Below are positions 717 to 63,561 of a stretch of 64,000 bases of DNA, one piece after another. Source of the DNA: Hyperoplus lanceolatus (Eukaryota; Chordata; Actinopteri; Uranoscopiformes; Ammodytidae); the NCBI GenBank assembly GCA_026929865.2, contig CM049416.1:11965501-12029500 (forward strand). Reading direction: 5' to 3'. The notes under the pieces were generated by a model. That model was not told the origin of the DNA, made no database searches, and was given only the letters and a program-made list of their open reading frames with translations. The translations under genes and the position numbers were made by a program. Every line of letters begins with the position of its first letter. Position 1 is the first letter of the stretch.

Positions 717-7518
<6,802 letters not shown>

Positions 7519-7593
7519 ATGTGGAAAAATGGGGATGGGTAGTATGGGCATTGACACTACCTGGAGCTTACTAGTACGGAGCCTGGGTCTGTT

Positions 7594-7609
7594 GAAGGTG
7601 GCTATGCTG
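7594..7609 (+). repeat. Left copy of 16-bp target-site duplication
   Basis: GAAGGTGGCTATGCTG occurs here and again, identically, at 13,306-13,321. The two copies bracket the L1-type element exactly. Confidence 0.95.
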
Positions 7610-7754
7610 ACCGACTTCCGGGTTACAGAGCATGGGGTAGGCACGATCGCTCTATAGCTCCCACAAAATATTTCAGACCTAACTGATTAAACCCTATTCT
7701 CGTCGATTTTTTTTGTGCTTGTGTTGCCGGTAACACTGATACTGTTTTGGAGAA

Positions 7755-8588
7755 ATGCCTAGAAGCAAGAAAAACGCAAAAAGAGATTCGGCAGAGTCAG
7801 ATATGTCCTCGGACAGCGTGGTTAGCATGGACGTTGGTGCTAGCTCAGTGGCTTCCATTCCGGGTCTGCTTGAACAGCACAGAGCAGCGATAGCTGCCGA
7901 GTTTAAATCAGCTTTCGCCAGCATGGACGCTAAACTGGACAGCATCCAGGCCGTGGTCTCAAGCCAGGGGAAACGTATAACCGATCTCGAGGATAATGCA
8001 GAAACTGTTTGCGGACGCCTGGAGCAACTTGAGGCTACGTGCTCCTCACTGCAGGAAGTTAATACGCTGTTGAAAGCTAAACTGTCGGATTTGGAAGGGA
8101 GGAGTAGGAGACAGAACGTTCGTATCGTGGGTTTACCAGAGTCACTGGAGGGTGCGCGCCCCACTGCCTTTTTCTCTGAGCTCCTCGTTGAGGTGTTTGG
8201 TGGTCAAGTACTCCCTTCTCCCCCGGAGCTGGACAGGGCTCACCGCACTCTGGCACCCAAACCGGGCCCGCATGAGAGGCCGAGATCCGTCGTTATCCGC
8301 TTTCACCGATACCAGACTAAAGACCTGATCATGACGGAGGCACGTAAACAGGGCGAGCTGGAGTACCACGGCCACAAGCTCCGGTTCTACGAGGACTACA
8401 GCGCGGAGGTCGTGAAGCAGCGGGCTGAATACAAACGGGTCATGGCTGAGCTTTATCAGCGCGGTCTCCGCCCCTCTCTCCTCTTCCCTGCGAGGCTTCG
8501 CATTACTCTCCAGAGCGGCGAGAGAAAGTGGCTGCGGTCTGTCTCTGAAGCATCTAACTACTTATCTACACTGGGTGTGAGTCCGTAG
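7755..8588 (+). CDS. L1-type ORF1 RNA-binding protein, 277 aa
   Basis: In the L1 family this protein trimerises, binds the element RNA and acts as a nucleic-acid chaperone. The open frame is intact. Residues 1-35 are basic then acidic and serine-rich. Residues about 38-115 form a coiled coil with regular hydrophobic spacing (KLDSIQAVV, ITDLEDNAETV, RLEQLEATCSSLQEV). The RRM-like domain begins at about 118 with the hallmark RRQNVRIVGLPES and includes PRSVVIRFHRYQTKDLIM. The C-terminal domain (about 205-277) includes LRFYEDYSAEVVKQRAEY and FPARLRITL. The first Met at 7,755 is preceded by the 145-bp leader. Length fits fish L1 ORF1 proteins. Confidence 0.9.
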   Translation: MPRSKKNAKRDSAESDMSSDSVVSMDVGASSVASIPGLLEQHRAAIAAEFKSAFASMDAKLDSIQAVVSSQGKRITDLEDNAETVCGRLEQLEATCSSLQEVNTLLKAKLSDLEGRSRRQNVRIVGLPESLEGARPTAFFSELLVEVFGGQVLPSPPELDRAHRTLAPKPGPHERPRSVVIRFHRYQTKDLIMTEARKQGELEYHGHKLRFYEDYSAEVVKQRAEYKRVMAELYQRGLRPSLLFPARLRITLQSGERKWLRSVSEASNYLSTLGVSP

Positions 8589-9286
8589 TAAATACGATTG
8601 CCTGCTGTGAGTATACAATGTGGACAAATGCTCTTTTCATATCCCCAGCCAAACTCTCAGACTGATGGTACTATACGCAATTGTATTTTTATTTTTAATG
8701 AGTAAAGTAGCTGGGTGAACGTGACATTTTTGTTGCTTGTCATTTTGACGTATTGTCTAGCTCACTCGCTTTTTTTATTGTTTATTTTGTATCTCTATTT
8801 CAAAATGGCTAGATAAGCGTGTCTGTTCTTTATTTTTTATTTATTTTTTTGCCATTTGGACAGATTGTCTAACTCACGCCTTGTTCTTTTTTTTTTTGTA
8901 TTTCGAATTTGTTGGTTGAGCACGGTATGCTTGTTTAGTGTGTTGTCATTTTGACAGTTTGCTAGATTGTTCATAGTGTTACTAGCAGTTATGGGGTGAA
9001 TTGTACAAGACTTATGTGGGAAGCTAGCATAGGCTAGAAAGTTAAGGCTTGGAATGTTTGTTGTGAGACTAGTAAGGGTCTTTCGGGGTTTGCTGTTGAG
9101 AGCAATATATGGGGTGGGTTTTGGGTGGGATGGGGTGGTGTCAACTGGGGGTTTAGCTGATGGGTTATCACCTGCTGTGTTTTCAGTTATCTGTGTTTTC
9201 CTTTTTTTGTGTTTTTTTTCCTCTGTATTTTGCTACTCTTTTTGTTATCGGAGCAACTCTTTTTACTCTCACTATAACTGAGCTAG
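8589..9286 (+). other. Long spacer between the two L1 ORFs
   Basis: This is about 700 bases, T-rich on the plus strand, and unusually long for an L1. It contains three diverged copies of a phrase like GTCATTTTGACNNATTGTCTA at about 8,739, 8,850 and 8,945. The 75-codon open frame at 9,054-9,281 is T-rich, has no recognised domain and is probably not translated. Possible roles as an internal promoter or ribosome entry region are inference only. Confidence 0.6.
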
Positions 9287-12200
9287 ATGAAGGGCAATCT
9301 TAATTTAATTAGTTGGAATGTCAAGGGGCTTAATCACCAAGTGAAAAGGGGTAAGGTCTTAACCCACCTAAAACGGCTCAGGGCTGGAATAGTTTTCCTT
9401 CAAGAAACCCACTTACACGACTCTGACCATGGGCGACTAAGTAAATGCTGGCGTGGACAATTTTTTCATTCTAATTTCAGGGCTAAGGCCAGGGGCACAG
9501 CTATCCTTATTGATAGTAATATTCCTTTTGAGTCCTCAAACATTATATCAGACAAAAATGGACGTTTTATTATTGTTTCAGGCAAACTTCACAATAAGTC
9601 AGTCATCTTGGCCAACGTCTACGCGCCTAACGTCGATGATGTAGAATTCTTTAAGAGATTTTTTTCTCAACTCCCTGATCTCAATTCCCATTCTCTTATT
9701 CTTGGTGGGGATTTTAATTGTTATCTAGATCCAGTCTTAGATCGCTCGTCCCCCAAACCTGCCACTCTTAACAGATCTGCAGGTTATATCAAATCATTTC
9801 TTGCTGATTATAGCCTTTCTGATCCATACAGGTTTTTATACCCCACAGGAAGAGAATATTCATTCTTTTCACATGTCCACCACACTTACACCCGAATTGA
9901 TTATTTTTTTGTTGATAATTCATTGATGTCAGACCTAAAGTCATGTAGTTATGAAAGTATTGTGATCTCAGATCACGCTCCTCTGCTCCTTCAACTGGCT
10001 TTCTCTGACGTTGAGTATACTAGAAGGCAGTGGAGACTGGATCCATTGTTGCTCACAGATGCGAGTTTTCTTTCACACATCTCTACACATATTAAAACTT
10101 TTTTGAGTATAAATAGAACACCAGATGTGTCTAATGCAACAATTTGGGAAGCCCTGAAAGCCTATTTGAGAGGTGAAATTATATCATTTGCAGCATACAA
10201 AAATAAGTGTACAAAACAGAAACAAACTGAAATAGCTGATCAGATTCTGAACATAGACAGACTATATGCTACCTCACCTTCATCTGAACTTTACAAAGAA
10301 CGTTTAAAACTTCAGACAGAATTCAACCTTCTTTCCTCTCGTCAGGTTGCTGACCAGTTGCTTAGGAGCAGAAGTACTTTTTACGAGCATGGTGACAAAA
10401 TTGGCAAACTCCTGGCCAATCAACTGCGCGGATTTAGAGCAAAGCAACTCATCCCTGGAATACGGACAGACAGTGGGTGTACAACATCAGATCAGAAATT
10501 GATAAACGAAAAGTTCAAAACATTCTATTCAAATTTGTATAGTTCTGATTGTACAGTAGACGCAGCGGTGATGGAAACCTTTTTCAGTAACCTAAACATG
10601 CCTTCCCTTTCTCAAGATCTGAGACCTAGCCTTGAGGCACCTATTACTCAGAGGGAAATTATTGCAGCAATAACATCTATGCAATCAGGCAAATCTCCTG
10701 GTCCAGACGGACTTCCATCTGACTTTTTTAAGAAATTTTCAGCCGAATTATCGCCTTTTTTATGTTCAGTATTCTCAGACTCATTTGACTCAGGTAAACT
10801 CCCGCCTTCGTTCTACCAGGCCTGTATTTCCCTGTTGTTAAAAAAGGATAAAGATCCTCTAGATTGTGCATCATACCGACCAATTTCACTATTAAATACG
10901 GATGTGAAGATACTTGCTAAAATTCTCGCCCACAGATTGGAGGATGTTCTCCCTCTATTATATCCCCGACCAAACTGGGTTTATAAAGGGACGCCAATCA
11001 TTTTATAACATCCGCCGGCTAATGAACATTTTATATTCCCCCAGAAATATTGAATCAGAATGCCTTGCTTCTATGGATGCTGAAAAAGCATTTGATAGAG
11101 TAGAATGGAATTATTTGTTTTTCACCCTTGAGAAATTCGGTCTGGGTCCCGTTTTCACTTCTTGGGTTAAATTGTTATATGCATGCCCTTCTGCCTCAGT
11201 ATTAACAAACAGCCGTTACTCAAGTAGTTTTGATCTGCATCGTGGGACCCGGCAGGGTTGTCCTTTGAGCCCACTCCTTTTTGCTATTGCAATCGAACCA
11301 CTTGCGATTGCCATTCGCAGTAACAAACAGATTCAGGGGATATGGAGAGGAGGAATTGAACATAAGGTATCATTATACGCCGATGACTTACTTTTGTTTG
11401 TCGCCAAGCCAGCCACCTCTTTACCGGAGGCACTTTCTGTGTTGGAGGTCTTTAGTCAGTTTTCTGGCTATAAACTTAACCTGAGTAAGAGCGAACTCTT
11501 TCCGATTAATAAAGAAGCTCTTAAACTTGATTATACAGCTCTCCCACTCAAAGTGGTGACAGATCAGCTGAGTTACCTTGGGGTATGTTTTACCAGAAAT
11601 TTTAAAAACCTATTTAAATCGAACTTCCTCAAATTATTGGATCAGGCGAAGCAAATATTATCGAAGTGGTCTCCTCTGGCTTTCTCTCTCATAGGTAGAA
11701 TAAATTCAATTAAAATGACATTACTCCCAAAGTTCCTATATCTATTCCAATGTCTCCCCATCTTTCTCCCCAAATCATTTTTTCAGGCCCTTGACTCATT
11801 AATGATAAATTATATTTGGAATGGTAAACACCCTCGGTTAAGGAAAGCATTTCTTCAAAGACCAAAACAAACAGGCGGAATGGCCCTCCCTAATTTCCAA
11901 TACTATTACTGGGCTGCTAATATCCGTTCTTTAGTGTATTGGGTGCATTTTCACCTTGACGACTCAGCCCCAGTATGGGTAACAATGGAGTCCAGCGCTG
12001 TTAGCCCATTGTCTCTATCTGCCCTCTTAAGCGCCGCACTTCCACTCTCTTCGGCTATTCCCAACAGTAATCCCGTGATTAAGCACTCCCTTCGAATTTG
12101 GACCCAATTTAGGAAGAATTTTGGAATGCAGAATTTTTCACTTTTCAGCCCAATTGCAGCTAATCATTTGTTTACTCCCTCGACGGTGGATGGTGCATTC

Positions 12201-13075
12201 AAGATCTGGCATAAAAAAGGCTTAAAATGCATTGGTGATTTATTTATTAATGATCTATTTGCTAGTTTTTCCCAATTGACAAAACATTTTGGTATCGAAA
12301 AGACAAATTTTTTCCGATTTCTGCAAATCAGGCATTTTACACAGAAGTTAATTCCCCAATTCCCTTATAAACCGCCAGCCAATCATGTCGATTTGTTTCT
12401 TTCTGTAAACCCCACATTAAAAGGCTCAATTTCTGTGTTTTTCAACCTTATTTCAAAGTTGCATAGCCCCTCATTAGCAGCTATAAAAACCCTGTGGGAG
12501 CAGGACCTAGGTTCTGCCTTCACAGATCACATGTGGGATTCAGTCCTGGATCGAATACACTCTACCTCCATGTGCGCCCGACATGCTCTTGTGCAATTTA
12601 AGATAGTACATCGTATCCACATATCTAAAACTAAATTAGCTCGTATGTTCCCCGATGTAGACCCGACCTGTGATAGCTGTAAGAGCGCACCGGCATCACT
12701 CTTTCACATGTACTGGTTGTGTCCCACTTTGACTGGGTTCTGGACATCAGTTTTTAAAACAATTTCTGAAGTACTTCAGCATCAAATTGAGCCGAACCCT
12801 TTCACTGCAATTTTTGGCATCGCCCCCAATTCAGGCTTGCCTAAGTGAAGCTAAAGGTACTGGCCTTCACCTCTTTACTTGCTCGTAGGGCTATTTTACT
12901 TAAATGGAAAGATCCTGCTCCTCCTTCCCACTCACATTGGATTAGAGACATTATGTCATGTATGAATCTGGAAAAAATTCGTTGCACTACCCAGGGATCT
13001 GAGACTAAATTTCATAAAATATGGCGCCCCTTCCTAGATTATTTTAACAAACCGACCACATTAATTGAAGAGTAG
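9287..13075 (+). pseudogene. L1-type ORF2: APE endonuclease and reverse transcriptase, two frameshifts
   Basis: The endonuclease (about residues 1-235) shows LISWNVKGLN, FLQETHL, NVYAPN, GGDFNC, TRIDYFFV and ISDHAPLLL, so all catalytic blocks are present. The RT follows with SGKSPGPDGLPSDFF, YRPISLLNTDVKILAK, QTGFIKGRQSFYNIRR, MDAEKAFDRVEW, RGTRQGCPLSPLLFA and SLYADDLLLF. A Cys-rich segment near the end reads CDSCKSAPASLFHMYWLC. The first frame (9,287-11,008) gives way to a second near 10,960-10,980, and that one returns to the first near 12,840-12,848, so two small indels have broken an ORF of about 1,260 codons. The Met at 9,287 precedes the endonuclease by only a few residues and is a natural start. 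Confidence 0.93.
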
Positions 13076-24986: not shown

Positions 24987-25005
24987 CGTTCTATTTCGTT
25001 CCTAC

Positions 25006-25151
25006 TGACCGCCAGAGGCGGTGCTTACAGCACTGGATGTTCCATCGCGCGCATGCGCAGGTCGAGATCTTTATACCAACAAAGTCACCTGTGACACCTG
25101 GGTGACCCCGGAATGTCTATATATTCCGGAAGTCACCTGAGGATCTGTTCC
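25006..25151 (+). repeat. Left inverted terminal repeat of the DIRS element, 146 bp
   Basis: It is identical to the reverse complement of 31,021-31,166 over all 146 bases when compared by eye. It begins TGACCGCCAGAGGCGGT, itself a small palindrome. Further in (25,101-25,137) it forms a second hairpin with arms GGTGACCCCGGAAT and ATTCCGGAAGTCACC around TCTATAT. The TATATA and CCGGAAGT (ETS-like) phrases suggest a promoter role, which is inference. Confidence 0.95.
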
Positions 25152-25502
25152 TTCTATTTTCTCGCGGATTAGCAGGACACACACAGTGCGTGTGTGTGAG
25201 AGATATACCGAATAGCTTTGTCGCAAGTAGCTTGTACCTTCGGGTTGGTGCTTCGATCTAACGTCGACCACCAAAGGCTGCGACTGGCAATTGTTTTCTA
25301 CTACGGCTGCGGGCCGGGCAGGGGTGAGTAAGTGTGAAAGCTACGCGTGGCCGCCGGCTACCGCGGTAGCTGTCACCTTCCACCTTGCATTATTGAGCTC
25401 GTAACAGTCGGCGGCTAGCTTCACAGTCGCCGTGTTATTATTTCGGTCGCGCCGTTGCTTGTAAGCCCGGTGCTGATTGTATACTATTGTTTTCTAAAGA
25501 GT

Positions 25503-26160
25503 GCCAGTGAGCGGCTGGGCTTAGCGCCGCCACGGTAAGTTCTAATTTCTTTTGCTAGCTGTTGCGCTGTGCTCGGGTGCTGAGTTCGCCGGGGCCAGTT
25601 GCTTACTTTGATTTAATTGTCAGTGAGCGGCGTGGGCATAGCCGCCGCCACGGTAATTGCTAGCTTGCTGCACTGCTGCTTGGGTGTGTGTCGCCTAGGC
25701 CAGTTGCTACTTGATTAGTTGACAGTGAGCGGCTGGGGTTAGCGCCGCCACGGTAAATTCTAGTTTCTTTTTGCTAGCTGTTGCGCTGTGCTCGGGTGCT
25801 GAGTTCGCCGGGGCCAGTTGCTTACTTTGGTTTAATTGTCAGTGAGCGGCGTGGGCATAGCCGCCGCCACGGTAATTGCTAGCTTTGCTGCACTGCTGCT
25901 TGGGTGTGTGTCGCCTAGGCCAGTTGCTACTTGATTAGTTGCCAGTGAGCGGCTGGGGTTAGCGCCGCCACGGTAGGTTCTAATTTATTTTTGCTAGCTG
26001 TTGCGCTGTGCTCGGGTGGTGAGTTCGCCGGGGCCGGTTGCTTACTTTGATTTAACTGTTAGTGAGCGGCGTGGGCATAGCCGCCGCCACGGTATTTGCT
26101 AGCTTTGCTGCACTGCTGCTGGGGTGTGTGTCGCCTAGGCCAGCTGCGTACTTGATTTAT
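25503..26160 (+). repeat. Leader tandem repeat of the DIRS element, about three 219-bp units
   Basis: Units start at 25,503, 25,721 and 25,941 (periods 218 and 220). Each is made of two half-units. The first is headed CAGTGAGCGGCTGGG and the second (25,619, about 25,838 and 26,058) is headed AGTGAGCGGCGTGGGC. Each head folds as a stem, GCGGC pairing with GCCGC across an 8-11 base loop, and is followed by CCACGGTA. The array lies between the left terminal repeat and the gag ORF, so it is part of the transcribed leader. Confidence 0.9.
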
Positions 26161-26395
26161 CGTTTTTGCAGGGGCGCGTCGTGCTCGGGTGCTCTCGCCT
26201 AGTGCTCGATTGCCTAAGCCTGCGTTAATTTGCCTCCAGTAGGCGGCTTGCGGGTAGCAGAGTCGCCTTCAAGGGGTTAATTTTGGGGTGTCACACCGGT
26301 GCTCGGTGCTCTCGCCTAGAGCCCGGCGGCATAGCCTACTAATTAATTTGCTATTTGCTAATTAGTTACTGAGATAGGGTAATTAAGTTGCCATT

Positions 26396-27880
26396 ATGTC
26401 AAGCGCCCATAATTGTGTCATCTGCTTGGCCTCCCTGCACACGGAGGATGGCCATGACCAGTGCTCTGCATGTCTGGGGGTTGAGCACCTGAGGGAAGCA
26501 CTGTCGGATGATCCATGCATGAATTGTAGTTGCATGCCTCATGCACTAAGGCTGGCTAGGCTGGCTGAGGTGGAGGGACTAGTGTTGCCCCCGTCGGGTG
26601 CGGGTCCTGGTGGCGCCAAGCGGCGCTCCTCGGCAGCTGGGGGACCCCCCGGGAAGTCCCGTAGGGTAGACGAGTTGACAACCCAAGTGAGCACACTATC
26701 GGGGGACGTGGCTCAGATCAAGGCCCTCTTGGAGAACCTCCGAGAGGCACAGGGTGTACCAGCCGCTGTGTGTGTTCCCGCGGCTGCACAACTTTCCTAT
26801 TCAGAGGATGATATGCTGTCTACAGCTGCATCCTGTAGTCTCTTTACAGAGGAGGGAGAAGTCTACGAGGCGTCCCTGGCTTCTCAGGCTCTCTCCCAGG
26901 GGTCGGCGGCCAGCTCGGCTAGAGGGCCAGGGCCCAGCCGCTGCACAGTTAGGCCAGCCTTGCATATGGCGCTGGCGAAGCTGGGGTTAGACGAGGCTCC
27001 GGTTTCATCTGCACCGGTAAGTGCATTTTTCCCGCAGGCTGTTCAACCCTCTGTTTTCACGTTGCCCCCCTCTGAGCCGTACATTGCGGAGCTGCATAGG
27101 TGCTGGCCGGAGGCCAAGGTTTGGTCCCGTCACACTAGCGATGGCAGAGCTCTGGCAGCTATGAGAGACGCTGGGGCTTACGGCTTGGACCGGTTAGCGC
27201 CAATTGAGCCAGCGATAGCATCCTTGGTTGTCTCCCCAGAGGAGGCGCTGAGGGCCGATGCGCGCTGCCCTCGGCCCCAGTGCCGAATTACGGACGACCT
27301 GCTTACCAGAAGCTACGGCATTGCTGCCCGTATGGGCCGTCTCGGGAATTCGCTTTCGCATACCGTTCTGGCTTTGTCCCAGACCATTCAGGGGTCAGAG
27401 GTTGATCCCTCAGCTCAGACCCTAAGTGAGATTTCTCTTCAGACATTTGCTTTTATGACTAGGGAACTAGGCAGATTAATGTCAACAATTACGTTGGCGC
27501 GCCGCCAGGTTTGGCTGGTGCAGTCCCCCCTGTCGGAGGTGTGTCGTCGGACCCTCCGGTCTCTCCCGGTTGTGCCAGGCCAGACGTTTGGGCCAGCTGC
27601 ACTGCAGGCCCTGGAGCGGAGTGTACAGGCTGGCCAGGCCAGCCAGCATTTTGCGAGTTTGCAGCGTCCACCGCCACCTTATTACAGACCAGGGGCCTCT
27701 GTGGTACCCTGTGCCAATAACCCTCGACCACGTCCAGCTGGACGATCGAGGGGCCAGCGTTTCTCCGAGCAGGTTGGCCGGCACCGTACTACCGCGCCGC
27801 CGCCACGGGAGGCATTTCAGGCGCCAAGAGGCCCGGCGCCAAGAGGCCCGGCGCCCAGCCGCCGCCCCCAAGGCCCCTAG
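26396..27880 (+). CDS. DIRS gag-like protein, 494 aa
   Basis: This is the first ORF of the element and is fully open. The N-terminus has a Cys/His-rich cluster (CVICLASLHTEDGHDQCSAC, then CMNCSCMPH) that could bind zinc and RNA. A short coiled-coil stretch lies near 90-120 (VDELTTQVSTLSGDVAQIKALL). The middle region (about 225-410) is helical and conserved in style with DIRS gag proteins, including a PSEPYIAELHRCW motif and LTRSYGIAARMGRLGNSLSH. The tail (about 420-494) is rich in Pro, Arg and Gly, including two copies of RGPAP. The ATG at 26,396 is the first in frame after the leader. In this family the product is thought to form the particle that carries the RNA. It overlaps the next ORF by about 310 bases in another frame. 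Confidence 0.85.
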   Translation: MSSAHNCVICLASLHTEDGHDQCSACLGVEHLREALSDDPCMNCSCMPHALRLARLAEVEGLVLPPSGAGPGGAKRRSSAAGGPPGKSRRVDELTTQVSTLSGDVAQIKALLENLREAQGVPAAVCVPAAAQLSYSEDDMLSTAASCSLFTEEGEVYEASLASQALSQGSAASSARGPGPSRCTVRPALHMALAKLGLDEAPVSSAPVSAFFPQAVQPSVFTLPPSEPYIAELHRCWPEAKVWSRHTSDGRALAAMRDAGAYGLDRLAPIEPAIASLVVSPEEALRADARCPRPQCRITDDLLTRSYGIAARMGRLGNSLSHTVLALSQTIQGSEVDPSAQTLSEISLQTFAFMTRELGRLMSTITLARRQVWLVQSPLSEVCRRTLRSLPVVPGQTFGPAALQALERSVQAGQASQHFASLQRPPPPYYRPGASVVPCANNPRPRPAGRSRGQRFSEQVGRHRTTAPPPREAFQAPRGPAPRGPAPSRRPQGP

Positions 27881-29813
27881 GGGCAGGGGGGTAGGTACTG
27901 AAGCTCAAGGGCCGGCCGTCGGACGTTTTTCTCAGCAGCACCTGGACTACTGGGAAGAACAGACCACAGACCCGTGGATGGTGTCCACGCTGTCCAACGG
28001 GTACACACTACAATTCCGACGCCGGCCCCCAACTTTCAGCGGGATCAGACTTACTGTGGTCAAAGATCCCGGCAGATCCCTGGTCCTGACCCAGGAAGTG
28101 GCCACCCTCCTGGGGAAGGGTGCCATCGAGGTAGTAGAGCCACAGGAACAGCTCAAGGGGTTCTACTCAACCTACTTTCTGGTACCGAAGAAGGATGGCG
28201 GGTTTCGCCCCATTCTGGACTTGAGACGGCTGAATCGGTACCTCAAGGTCTTTTCCTTCCACATGCTGCGTGTTGCAGATGTCCTCCGGGCTATCGCTCC
28301 GGAGGACTGGTTTGTGTCGATAGACCTGAAAGACGCCTACTTTCATGTCCCTATTTCACAGCGTCACAGGCGGTTCCTCCGCTTCGCATTTCTGGGCAAG
28401 GTGTACCAATTCAAGGTCCTTCCATTCGGGCTGTCTCTGGCCCCACGTATATTTACAAGGTGTGTGGCAGCAGCCCTGTCCCCATTACAGGCCGGCGGTA
28501 TGGCGATATTGCCGTACCTAGACGACTGGCTAATCATTTCCCCAACTCGGGAGCAGGCAGTCAGGGACACAGCCAGGCTCCTCAGCCATGTGGAGCGGCT
28601 TGGCCTCACGGTCAACTTTTCCAAGAGCAACCTTACACCATGTCGGGTGGTGAGTTATCTGGGGCTGGTGCTCGATTCGGTGGACATGCGAGCCTGCCTC
28701 TCTCCAAAGCGCGTCGCTACCATTCTGCAGCTACTACAGCGCTTCAGGCGGGGGAGGTTGCTGGAATACGGCCTCTTCCTGCGACTGATTGGTATGCTGG
28801 CCGCGGCATCCGGCGTGGTCCCGCTAGGCCTTCTCAGGTTGCGGCCTCTGCAGATCTGGGCCAATGGTCTCCACTTGGACCCCAAGTGGCAGAGACACAA
28901 GATGGTCAGGGTGTCTGGGCAGTGCCTTTTGGCCCTCCGACCCTGGAGAGAGAGGGCGTACCTGATTGCGCGGGGCGCCCCTTAGGGAGGCTGGCTTCCT
29001 GGCGGGAGGTCGTAGAGACAGACGCCTCCCCTTACCGGCTGGGGCGCAGTATGGCGCCACAGGACTGTCAGAGGCCAGTGGGATTCCCAGCAGAGGCTGG
29101 AGCATATAAATGTGTTGGAACTCCTTGCGGTGTTCTTGGCTCTAAAGCACTTCCTTACAGTTCTGAGAAACCGGCATGTTCTCGTCCGGACAGACAACAT
29201 TTCCACTGTCTACCACGTCAACCACCAGGGGGGCACCAGATCGAGGCGGAACCTGCGGGTCGCGCAGGGACTCCTTACATGGGCGTTCCCCCATTTCCTA
29301 AGCCTGAGGGCTGCCCATGTTCCAGGTGTCCAGAACATAGCGGCAGACCTTCTCTCTCGCCAAGGGCCACCCTCCGGGGAGTGGATGCTCCATCCGGAGG
29401 TGGTGGGCATGATTTGGGACAGGTATGGCAGGGCAGTGGTAGATCTCTTTGCTTCCGAAGAGACGACCCACTGTCCCCTCTGGTTCTCCGTGATGGAGAG
29501 GACCAGCCCCTTAGGACAGGACGCTCTGGCTCATGCTTGGCCAGACAGCCTGCTCTATGCATTTCCTCCAATTCCCCTTATACTGGCAACACTGGACAGA
29601 GTCCAGCGTGGCGGTCACAGCCTACTTCTGGTGGCCCCACATTGGCCAGGGAGGCTGTGGTTCCCAGCATTGCTGAAACTCCTCAACGGAGAGGCTTGGC
29701 GCCTTCCAGAGAGACAGGATCTTCTGTCTCAGGTCGGCGGGCGTATATGGCACACAAATCCGGGGCGCCTGCGGCTGTGCGTGTGGCCCCTGAGAGCCAG
29801 GACCCACTGCTGA
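27570..29813 (+). pseudogene. DIRS reverse transcriptase / RNase H / methyltransferase-like ORF, frameshifted
   Basis: The RT domain is clear: FLVPKKDGGFRPILDLRRLN, the catalytic Asp block SIDLKDAYFHVPIS, VLPFGLSLAPRIFTR, and the active site LPYLDDWLII. RNase H follows with VVETDAS, GWGAVW, HINVLELLAVFLALKHF, VLVRTDN and HVPGVQNIAADLLSR. The last part (about 29,390-29,700) has VVDLFASEETTHCPLWF and LLLVAPHWPGRLWF, matching the Dam-like methyltransferase region known in DIRS elements. The main frame ends at a TAG (28,983). About 50 bases (28,985 to ~29,033, carrying TDAS) read in a second frame, and the first frame then resumes to 29,813. Two nearby compensating indels therefore break the ORF. 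The Met at 27,570 lies inside gag, so the true start is uncertain. Confidence 0.9.
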
Positions 29814-30837
29814 CGTCTTGCGACCAGTCGGTGGTCCGTACCATTTTTAGTGCTAGAGCACCCTCCACTAGGTTGCTCTATGCAAACAGGTGGAAGTTGT
29901 TTTCGCAGTGGTGCGTGACACAAGGCGAGGTCCCGGAGACTTGCTCGGTGGTGGTGATACTGAACTTTCTGCAGTCTGTGTTGGACAACAACAGGGCTGC
30001 TTCGACCCTGCGCGTTTATGTGGCTGCAATCTCGGCTGCACATGCAAGGGTTGATAGCCAGACGGTAGGATCCCACTACCTAGTCAGGCAGTTTCTAAAG
30101 GGAGCCCAGAGGCTTCGACCACCACGACCCCTGAGGGCACCATCATGGGACTTGCAAGTGGTTCTGAGGTCCTTATGTCTACCCCCATTTGAGCCGCTAA
30201 GTCAGGCAGATCTGACGCGGCTGTCTATGAAAACGGCTTTCCTTCTCGCCATTGCAACTGCGAAACGGGTCGGTGAACTCCATGCCTTGTCAGTGAGCCA
30301 GGCGTGTATGCGCTGGCACGCAGATGGGTCAGGAGTGGTGCTCTGGCCGAATCCATCCTTCCTGCCCAAACGTTTGTCTCCCCATCACGCAAACCAACCA
30401 ATTGAGTTGGCTGCTTTCAATCCCCCAGGCTCTCCGGGGGTGCAGAGGGAGTGTCAGACCCGCTGTGCCCGGTGCGGGCGCTTAGGGCGTATGTTGAAGC
30501 GACAACCAGCTTACGTAAGACAGATAACCTCTTTGTCTGTTACGGGGGCTGCAGGAAAGGGGCTGCCCTGTCCAAGCAGAGACTCTCTCACTGGATTGTG
30601 GATCTAGTGTTGAATGCATATAGAGCACAGGGGCTCCCTGTGCCCTTGGCCGTTAAGTGCCACTCTACCAGGAGTATGGCTACGTCATGGGCGGCCTTGA
30701 AGGGGGTTCCTCTTCAGGACATCTGCTCCGCGGCTACATGGTCTTCATCATGTACGTTTGCGCGGTTCTACAGAGTGAATGTCGCTGCTCCTCATCCGGT
30801 GGCGACGGCTGTCCTGTTGATGGCTGCAAGCCCTTAA
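29747..30837 (+). pseudogene. DIRS tyrosine recombinase, one frameshift
   Basis: The recombinase joins the circular DNA copy to the chromosome in this family. The N-terminal SAM-like core-binding part shows ARAPSTRLLYANRWKLFSQW and AASTLRVYVAAISAAHA. The catalytic part shows the first Arg in AKRVGELHALSV, the box HSTRSMATSWA (His and second Arg) and the nucleophile Tyr in FARFYRVNV. The first part reads in one frame to about 30,445 and the second in another (30,451-30,837), so a single small indel lies near 30,445-30,455. The Met at 29,747 is a reasonable start and overlaps the RT ORF by about 67 bases. The stop at 30,835 is only 36 bases before the internal complementary region. Confidence 0.9.
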
Positions 30838-30873
30838 GTGGTGAGTACTCTTCGTGACCTTTTTGGTATAAGT

Positions 30874-30976
30874 CATCCAGTGCTGTAAGCACCGCCTCTG
30901 GCGGTCAGTAGGAACGAAATAGAACGATAGTTACGTATGTAACTACGGTTCTATGAGTTCCGGATGACCGCCAGAG
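30874..30976 (+). repeat. Internal complementary region (ICR) of the DIRS element
   Basis: Bases 30,874-30,926 are complementary to the left end 24,987-25,039 (53 bp). Bases 30,923-30,976 are complementary to the right end 31,155-31,208 (54 bp). The two halves overlap by AACG, the complement of the CGTT found at both element ends. In DIRS elements this region acts as a splint that rebuilds the termini during replication. The inner part also contains a near-palindrome, AGTTACGTATGTAACT. Confidence 0.95.
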
Positions 30977-31020
30977 TTCTCTGTCACTCAGACTTCTCAG
31001 ACACCGCGAGAAGATCCAGT

Positions 31021-31166
31021 GGAACAGATCCTCAGGTGACTTCCGGAATATATAGACATTCCGGGGTCACCCAGGTGTCACAGGTGACTTTGTTGGTATA
31101 AAGATCTCGACCTGCGCATGCGCGCGATGGAACATCCAGTGCTGTAAGCACCGCCTCTGGCGGTCA
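31021..31166 (-). repeat. Right inverted terminal repeat of the DIRS element, 146 bp
   Basis: This is the reverse complement of 25,006-25,151 with no mismatch seen. A weaker match continues inward for about 20 bases (CGCGAGAAGA against the left copy). Outside it lie the 42 bases unique to the right end, which are represented in the ICR. Confidence 0.95.
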
Positions 31167-31208
31167 TCCGGAACTCATAGAACCGTAGTTACATACGTAA
31201 CTATCGTT

Positions 31209-36231: not shown

Positions 36232-63561
<27,330 letters not shown>

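Follow-up and report, generated by a model that had tools for sequence, protein, structure and literature searches.

The window analysed here is the whole 64,000-nucleotide stretch of the Hyperoplus lanceolatus genome (GenBank assembly GCA_026929865.2, contig CM049416.1, positions 11,965,501 to 12,029,500 of the forward strand), and positions below are counted from its first base. It holds an element that by its sequence is a DIRS1-like retrotransposon, an ordinary member of a class already known, with the following features.

24988-31208, plus strand: DIRS1-like element, GTT...GTT, 6221 bp, delimited by end alignments and genome copies
24988-25005, plus strand: left terminus, divergent part of the inverted terminal repeat (ITR), beginning with the junction triplet GTT
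25006-25151, plus strand: left conserved ITR, 146 bp, an exact inverted match to the right ITR
25505-26157, plus strand: a 220-bp unit repeated three times in tandem, within the 5' leader
26396-27880, plus strand: ORF1, 494 aa, open, named gag by position only
27900-28985, plus strand: reverse transcriptase (RT) region, RVT_1 match with E 8.7e-27, above cut-off, stop codon at 28983-28985
28986-29813, plus strand: RNase H-like and presumed methylase region, frame interrupted in the window copy
29702-30837, plus strand: tyrosine recombinase region, split over two frames and overlapping the RT/RNase H frame
30874-30976, plus strand: internal complementary region (ICR), 30874-30925 pairing with the left end and 30923-30976 with the right end, overlap AAC
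31021-31166, minus strand: right conserved ITR, 146 bp, exact inverted match to 25006-25151
31167-31208, plus strand: right divergent ITR and right extension, ending with the junction triplet GTT

The RT frame is open to 28982, and pieces of an RT, an RNase H-like protein and a tyrosine recombinase lie in DIRS1 order, which identifies the element as a DIRS1-like retrotransposon. The RNase H match in Pfam (E 0.0035) falls below the cut-off, and in the window copy the RNase H motif and the part downstream of it are in different frames. The methylase within 28986-29813 is presumed by us from its position, and a Pfam scan of 29112-29810 listed no methylase family; for ORF1 no Pfam match was found at E 0.01. 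The recombinase frame of the window copy stops before the HSTR motif, which lies in the second recombinase piece, and the matches to PF00589 (E 0.055 for the window piece, 0.0051 for the copy L013) and PF02899 (E 0.092 and 0.2) are below the Pfam curated cut-offs. The initial annotation had taken this for a DIRS element complete in its structure, one internal region of which represents both ends. The structure bears this out, but completeness does not extend to the coding regions: the frames of the RNase H and of the recombinase are interrupted, and the window copy cannot encode the full protein set in the frames as read. Among 20 copies sampled from the genome (below), a single long frame carries the gag, RT and RNase H motifs in four, and two have a recombinase frame of at least 386 aa that reaches HSTR. 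A search of viral contigs with the RT protein gave no match, nor did an Rfam search of the window at gathering scores. Elsewhere in the window, long ORFs at 5680-12848 resemble, by eye, LINE-type reverse transcriptase and endonuclease proteins, and a 250-aa ORF at 46166-46918 on the minus strand resembles, also by eye, a fibrinogen-like protein.

The longest exact inverted match joins 25006-25151 to 31021-31166 (146/146), as expected from the earlier description of two 146-bp ITRs without mismatch; a second alignment gives an inverted terminal match of 154 nt at 98%. Outside the 146-bp match the left and right ends diverge, and 31167-31208 holds the near-palindrome GTAGTTAC-ATAC-GTAACTAT. The pairing of the ICR with the two ends, also said to be free of mismatches, proved to be so: 30874-30926 pairs with 24987-25039 over 53 nt and 30923-30976 with 31155-31208 over 54 nt, the two halves in this alignment overlapping by AACG, and the right extension is complementary only to the right half. 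Exact matches of 53, 54 and 146 nt within 6.2 kb are such that no chance model is needed.

The AACG overlap had been read as the complement of a CGTT at both termini, which is true of the letters of the window but, as a shared terminus, is one base too long. We searched the fish's own genome (806.7 Mb, 527 contigs) with the left end, and among the best 40 of 1330 candidates the alignments begin at base 2 (GTT) in 36 cases and at base 1 in 4. Other copies in the same genome do share the junction bases if these are taken to be GTT; the C in front of the left GTT does not belong to the common element sequence, the junction is GTT/AAC, and the element extends from 24988 to 31208 (6221 bp). The insertion, said to be fixed to the base, is placed with an uncertainty of 3 nt, since GTT can here be assigned to neither element nor target. 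The claim that the circle junction is given directly is supported as an inference, in that the ICR spells the predicted TATC-GTT-CTATTT.

The copy sample consists of the first 20 of the 40 scored left-end matches, taken as 8-kb stretches and including the window's own copy (L009). Both ends lie inside the stretch in 18 of them (L012 and L027 have no right end there). The overlap between the ICR halves is 3 nt in 17 of these 18 and 1 nt in L017, which terminates in GAT; one half is exact over 52 nt of the left end in 15/18 (in L025 just 23 nt align), and the other is exact over 54 nt of the right end in 16/18. By eye, the 12-nt flanks of the 18 copies show no duplication beyond the triplet. Their element lengths range from 5836 to 7245 bp, which may in part reflect the number of 220-bp leader units. 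The RT regions of the 19 other copies are 96.8-99.5% identical to that of the window copy, values that come from best matches and so lean toward young copies, and this suggests a young family.

In the published model, as we apply it here, the transcript would lack parts of the ends, and the ICR, in which the complements of the two ends meet at AAC, would be the template on which they are rebuilt and joined into a circle; the element's own tyrosine recombinase would then insert this circle through an exchange between GTT and a target triplet resembling it, without target duplication. An ICR, a 3-bp junction and integration without target duplication are all described for the DIRS1 architecture in PMC3266345. 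The exact ITRs and ICR, the RT match at E 8.7e-27, the RNase H and integrase-fold matches, weak but placed in DIRS1 order, the 40 scored left ends and 40 scored right-end places, the 3-nt ICR overlap in 17 of 18 copies and the layout published for fish elements all argue for this identity, and we put at about 0.95 the probability that the window holds one copy from a multi-copy family of DIRS1-like tyrosine-recombinase retrotransposons, inserted by its own recombinase at a three-base junction. It would take an extraordinary coincidence for it to be instead an LTR retrotransposon or a foldback transposon whose internal complementarity arose by chance: the weak recombinase score favours such an origin and nothing else does, whereas the terminal repeats are inverted and not direct, the ICR matches both ends in 18/18 copies with both ends in view (L025 partially), and an RT is accompanied by a split integrase-fold protein with HSTR.

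Right ends were collected with a query that stopped just before GTT, so that the sample is neutral with respect to the triplet. The best 40 of 947 candidates all match at 100% over 67 nt, and there were 5 weaker paired hits in addition. We counted 35 of the 40 places, dropping two flips that were read, two that were inferred from paired hits only, and the place C1:24350142-24350208. In the two read flips, L075 and L096, the sequence had looked like a tandem of right end, GTT and left end; alignment rejects this and shows a flip inside one copy, the flipped part being bounded by 54-nt inverted repeats, namely the right half of the ICR and the right extension, and homologous or recombinase-mediated inversion would probably account for such flips. 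The right-end sequence at C1:24350142-24350208, matched to the window by eye, runs from GTT, by way of a shortened ICR, into the reverse complement of the element's own 3' part; this arrangement is that of L139 (C1:24350205-24350265).

Thirty of the right-end loci (L069-L098) were also compared with the window element in their interiors. Across some 1570 nt, L069, L074, L078, L090 and L093 are 99.7-99.9% identical to it; for L088 the identity is 97%, and the rest, the two flips apart, give piecewise matches of roughly 80-91%. An identical 67-nt right end, which the query imposes on all these loci by construction, is thus present in copies from subfamilies whose interiors match the window element at only about 80-91%. 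Identical right ends across subfamilies suggest constraint or exchange at the ends.

The 35 right termini read GTT in 28 cases, GAT in 5, GTA in 1 and GGT in 1, so that seven are unlike the junction, which is not predicted by the simplest model, that of an identical genomic triplet. Pooling two samples gives 49 distinct right ends (GTT 42, GAT 6, GTA 1), and in their flanks T follows the triplet at +1 in 35/49 and at +2 in 34/49 against a background of 0.31; there is a preference for T at these two bases. The copy L017 is inserted among GATA repeats, and their register is unbroken across the right GAT, so the right triplet of this copy is evidently the target's and the left GTT the circle's; in other copies, too, the right triplet would be the target's. 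Mutation after insertion, to which left and right ends would be equally subject, is an improbable source of the right GAT, GTA and GGT. Left ends free of query bias are few (12 GTT and an ambiguous TTT, see below, with Fisher p values of 0.32 and 0.17), and some copies are decayed, for example at the left end of L086. However, the 40 best-scoring places agree at 100% over the 67 nt that precede the triplet, so that 7 changes in 35 triplets are not ordinary mutation; the same change, to GAT, accounts for 5 of the 7; and the GATA register continues through the right GAT of L017.

Left ends are more uniform: 53 distinct ones were read (an earlier 48 together with L107, L126, L127, L140 and L141), and 52 are GTT. 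The remaining one, TTT, belongs to L119, the partner of L086; it is a decayed end, for which GTT with one added T is a further reading. Forty of the 53 came through a query that itself contained GTT and are therefore biased, leaving 12 GTT ends and the ambiguous one that were found by position or with a core-less query. The 12 are L102, L106, L107, L108, L113, L114, L120, L126, L127, L130, L140 and L141, the first four having been sought because their right ends are discordant. In the core-less left search (best 40 of 1233 candidates) the triplet was read at 20 of the 40 places and was GTT at all of them, 13 of the 20 being shared with the GTT-query set. Fisher's test of non-GTT triplets on the right against the left, made before one right end was dropped, is not significant, with p 0.32 for 7/36 against 0/10 and p 0.17 for 7/36 against 0/12; 7/36 against 0/50 gives p 0.0016, but this leans on the GTT-biased left set. 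Eight copies are discordant on the right (the seven above and L017), and for five of them (L017, L073, L077, L084 and L091, leaving out L083, L097 and L134) the left end was read as well, and is GTT in 5/5. Either model predicts a GTT left end once the right end is discordant; such pairs show that the two ends differ and do not by themselves show polarity.

These counts suggest, without proof, that the left end keeps the circle's three junction bases and the right end shows those of the target, and hence a strand polarity in integration, on which the bias-free left sample (p 0.17) is too small to decide. A symmetric exchange, in which the target triplet may come to lie at either end and the apparent polarity is a sampling effect, has in our judgement somewhat less than an even chance of being correct: a GTT-containing query stands behind 40 of the 53 left ends, only half of the core-less-search triplets could be read, and the bias-free comparison gives only p 0.17, but the triplets that were read in that search are GTT in 20/20, and published elements lean the same way. 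Our tally of the 28 elements in the PMC3266345 table, with 2 that have a 2-base junction set aside, finds 18 in which both ends equal the junction, 7 discordant at the end only and 1 at the start only. End-only discordance in 7 of the 8 singly discordant elements has a two-sided binomial p of 0.07, and the eighth, AcasDIRS1, is the one listed with a left and without a right extension. Section 10 of that paper does not comment on an asymmetry between start and end.

We also folded the predicted circle junction, that is, the complement of the ICR, as single-stranded DNA. It forms one long hairpin (-30.3 kcal/mol, z -8.8, equalled in 0/200 shuffles), and its opposite strand folds with z -10.1. 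Much of this hairpin is expected from the inverted ITRs alone, and the right end by itself folds modestly (z -2.15, 7/200 shuffles). There are no inverted arms about GTT: 2/20 pairs match, or at most 7/15 when one side is slid by 1-3 bases, and the ungapped palindrome score of the junction is 18/30 against a shuffle mean of 13.5 and a maximum of 19 in 2000. Among the ways in which a polarity could arise, a one-strand, integron-like exchange of a folded junction is a long shot. Here the circle junction or cDNA would fold into an ITR stem tipped by the right-extension hairpin, with the GTT crossover just below; a cut in one strand, either |GTT or G|TT, would let that strand be joined to a GNT-like target, and replication would complete the insertion, so that the left end would always keep the circle's triplet and the extension-bearing end always show the target's. 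Discordance so far on the right only, the single-stranded hairpin, the lack of inverted arms and the lean of the published table are consistent with such an exchange. Against it stand the large share of the inverted ITRs in the hairpin, the modest fold of the right end, the GTA copy, which misfits GNT, and an incomplete left sample whose bias-free part is not significant; moreover, the model in PMC5633606, described there as experimentally not fully proven for DIRS-1, has a double-stranded circle.

The architecture itself is not novel, since the ICR, the 3-bp junction and AAC/GTT are already published for fish elements (PMC3266345). What goes beyond the known picture is the end-specific discordance of the triplet, which is new but incomplete and which we put forward as a lead. 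Titles and abstract openings gave nothing on DIRS strand polarity or on integron-like or hairpin mechanisms, subscription papers lying mostly outside this scope, and the available text of PMC3266345 has no word beginning "palindrom". Copies as abundant and mutually alike as these allow a recombinase target rule and a strand polarity to be read without experiment, and should the target triplet always lie at the extension-bearing end, tests could address how many strand exchanges occur and in what order, and the right extension would have a candidate function.

Among known systems, the integron integrase is likewise a tyrosine recombinase, and the comparison concerns mechanism only. The asymmetric recombination of a folded single strand at attC (PMC8876359) resembles the hairpin-forming junction here, and the IntI1 target consensus GNT (PMC4618277) resembles the GTT, GAT and GGT right triplets, with the GTA copy as a misfit; integrons differ in being bacterial and in having no RNA step, and the likeness implies no common descent. 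The founding member, Dictyostelium DIRS-1, likewise has ITRs, an ICR and a right extension, and an RT-RNase H followed by a recombinase in overlapping frames (PMC3266345, PMC5633606). It differs in inserting preferentially into its own copies (PMC5633606), and DIRS1-2 of Dictyostelium differs in having the junction TAA/TTA and a conserved ITR of 304 bp (PMC3266345, Table 3). Closest in description, as given in PMC3266345, are TnDIRS1a of Tetraodon and GaDIRS1/2 of stickleback, a likeness of layout, with sizes of 5322-5931 bp against 6221 bp here. They have ICR halves of 36-46 and 56-57 (52 and 54 in the window element) and, like the window element, a long ORF overlap. The junction AAC and start GTT (Table 3) are those of the window element, the conserved ITR is 144-148 bp and the right extension 26-27, similar to that of the window element; TnDIRS1a, with an ITR of 146 bp equal to that of the window element and an extension of 27, ends in GAT, as do some of the right ends found here.
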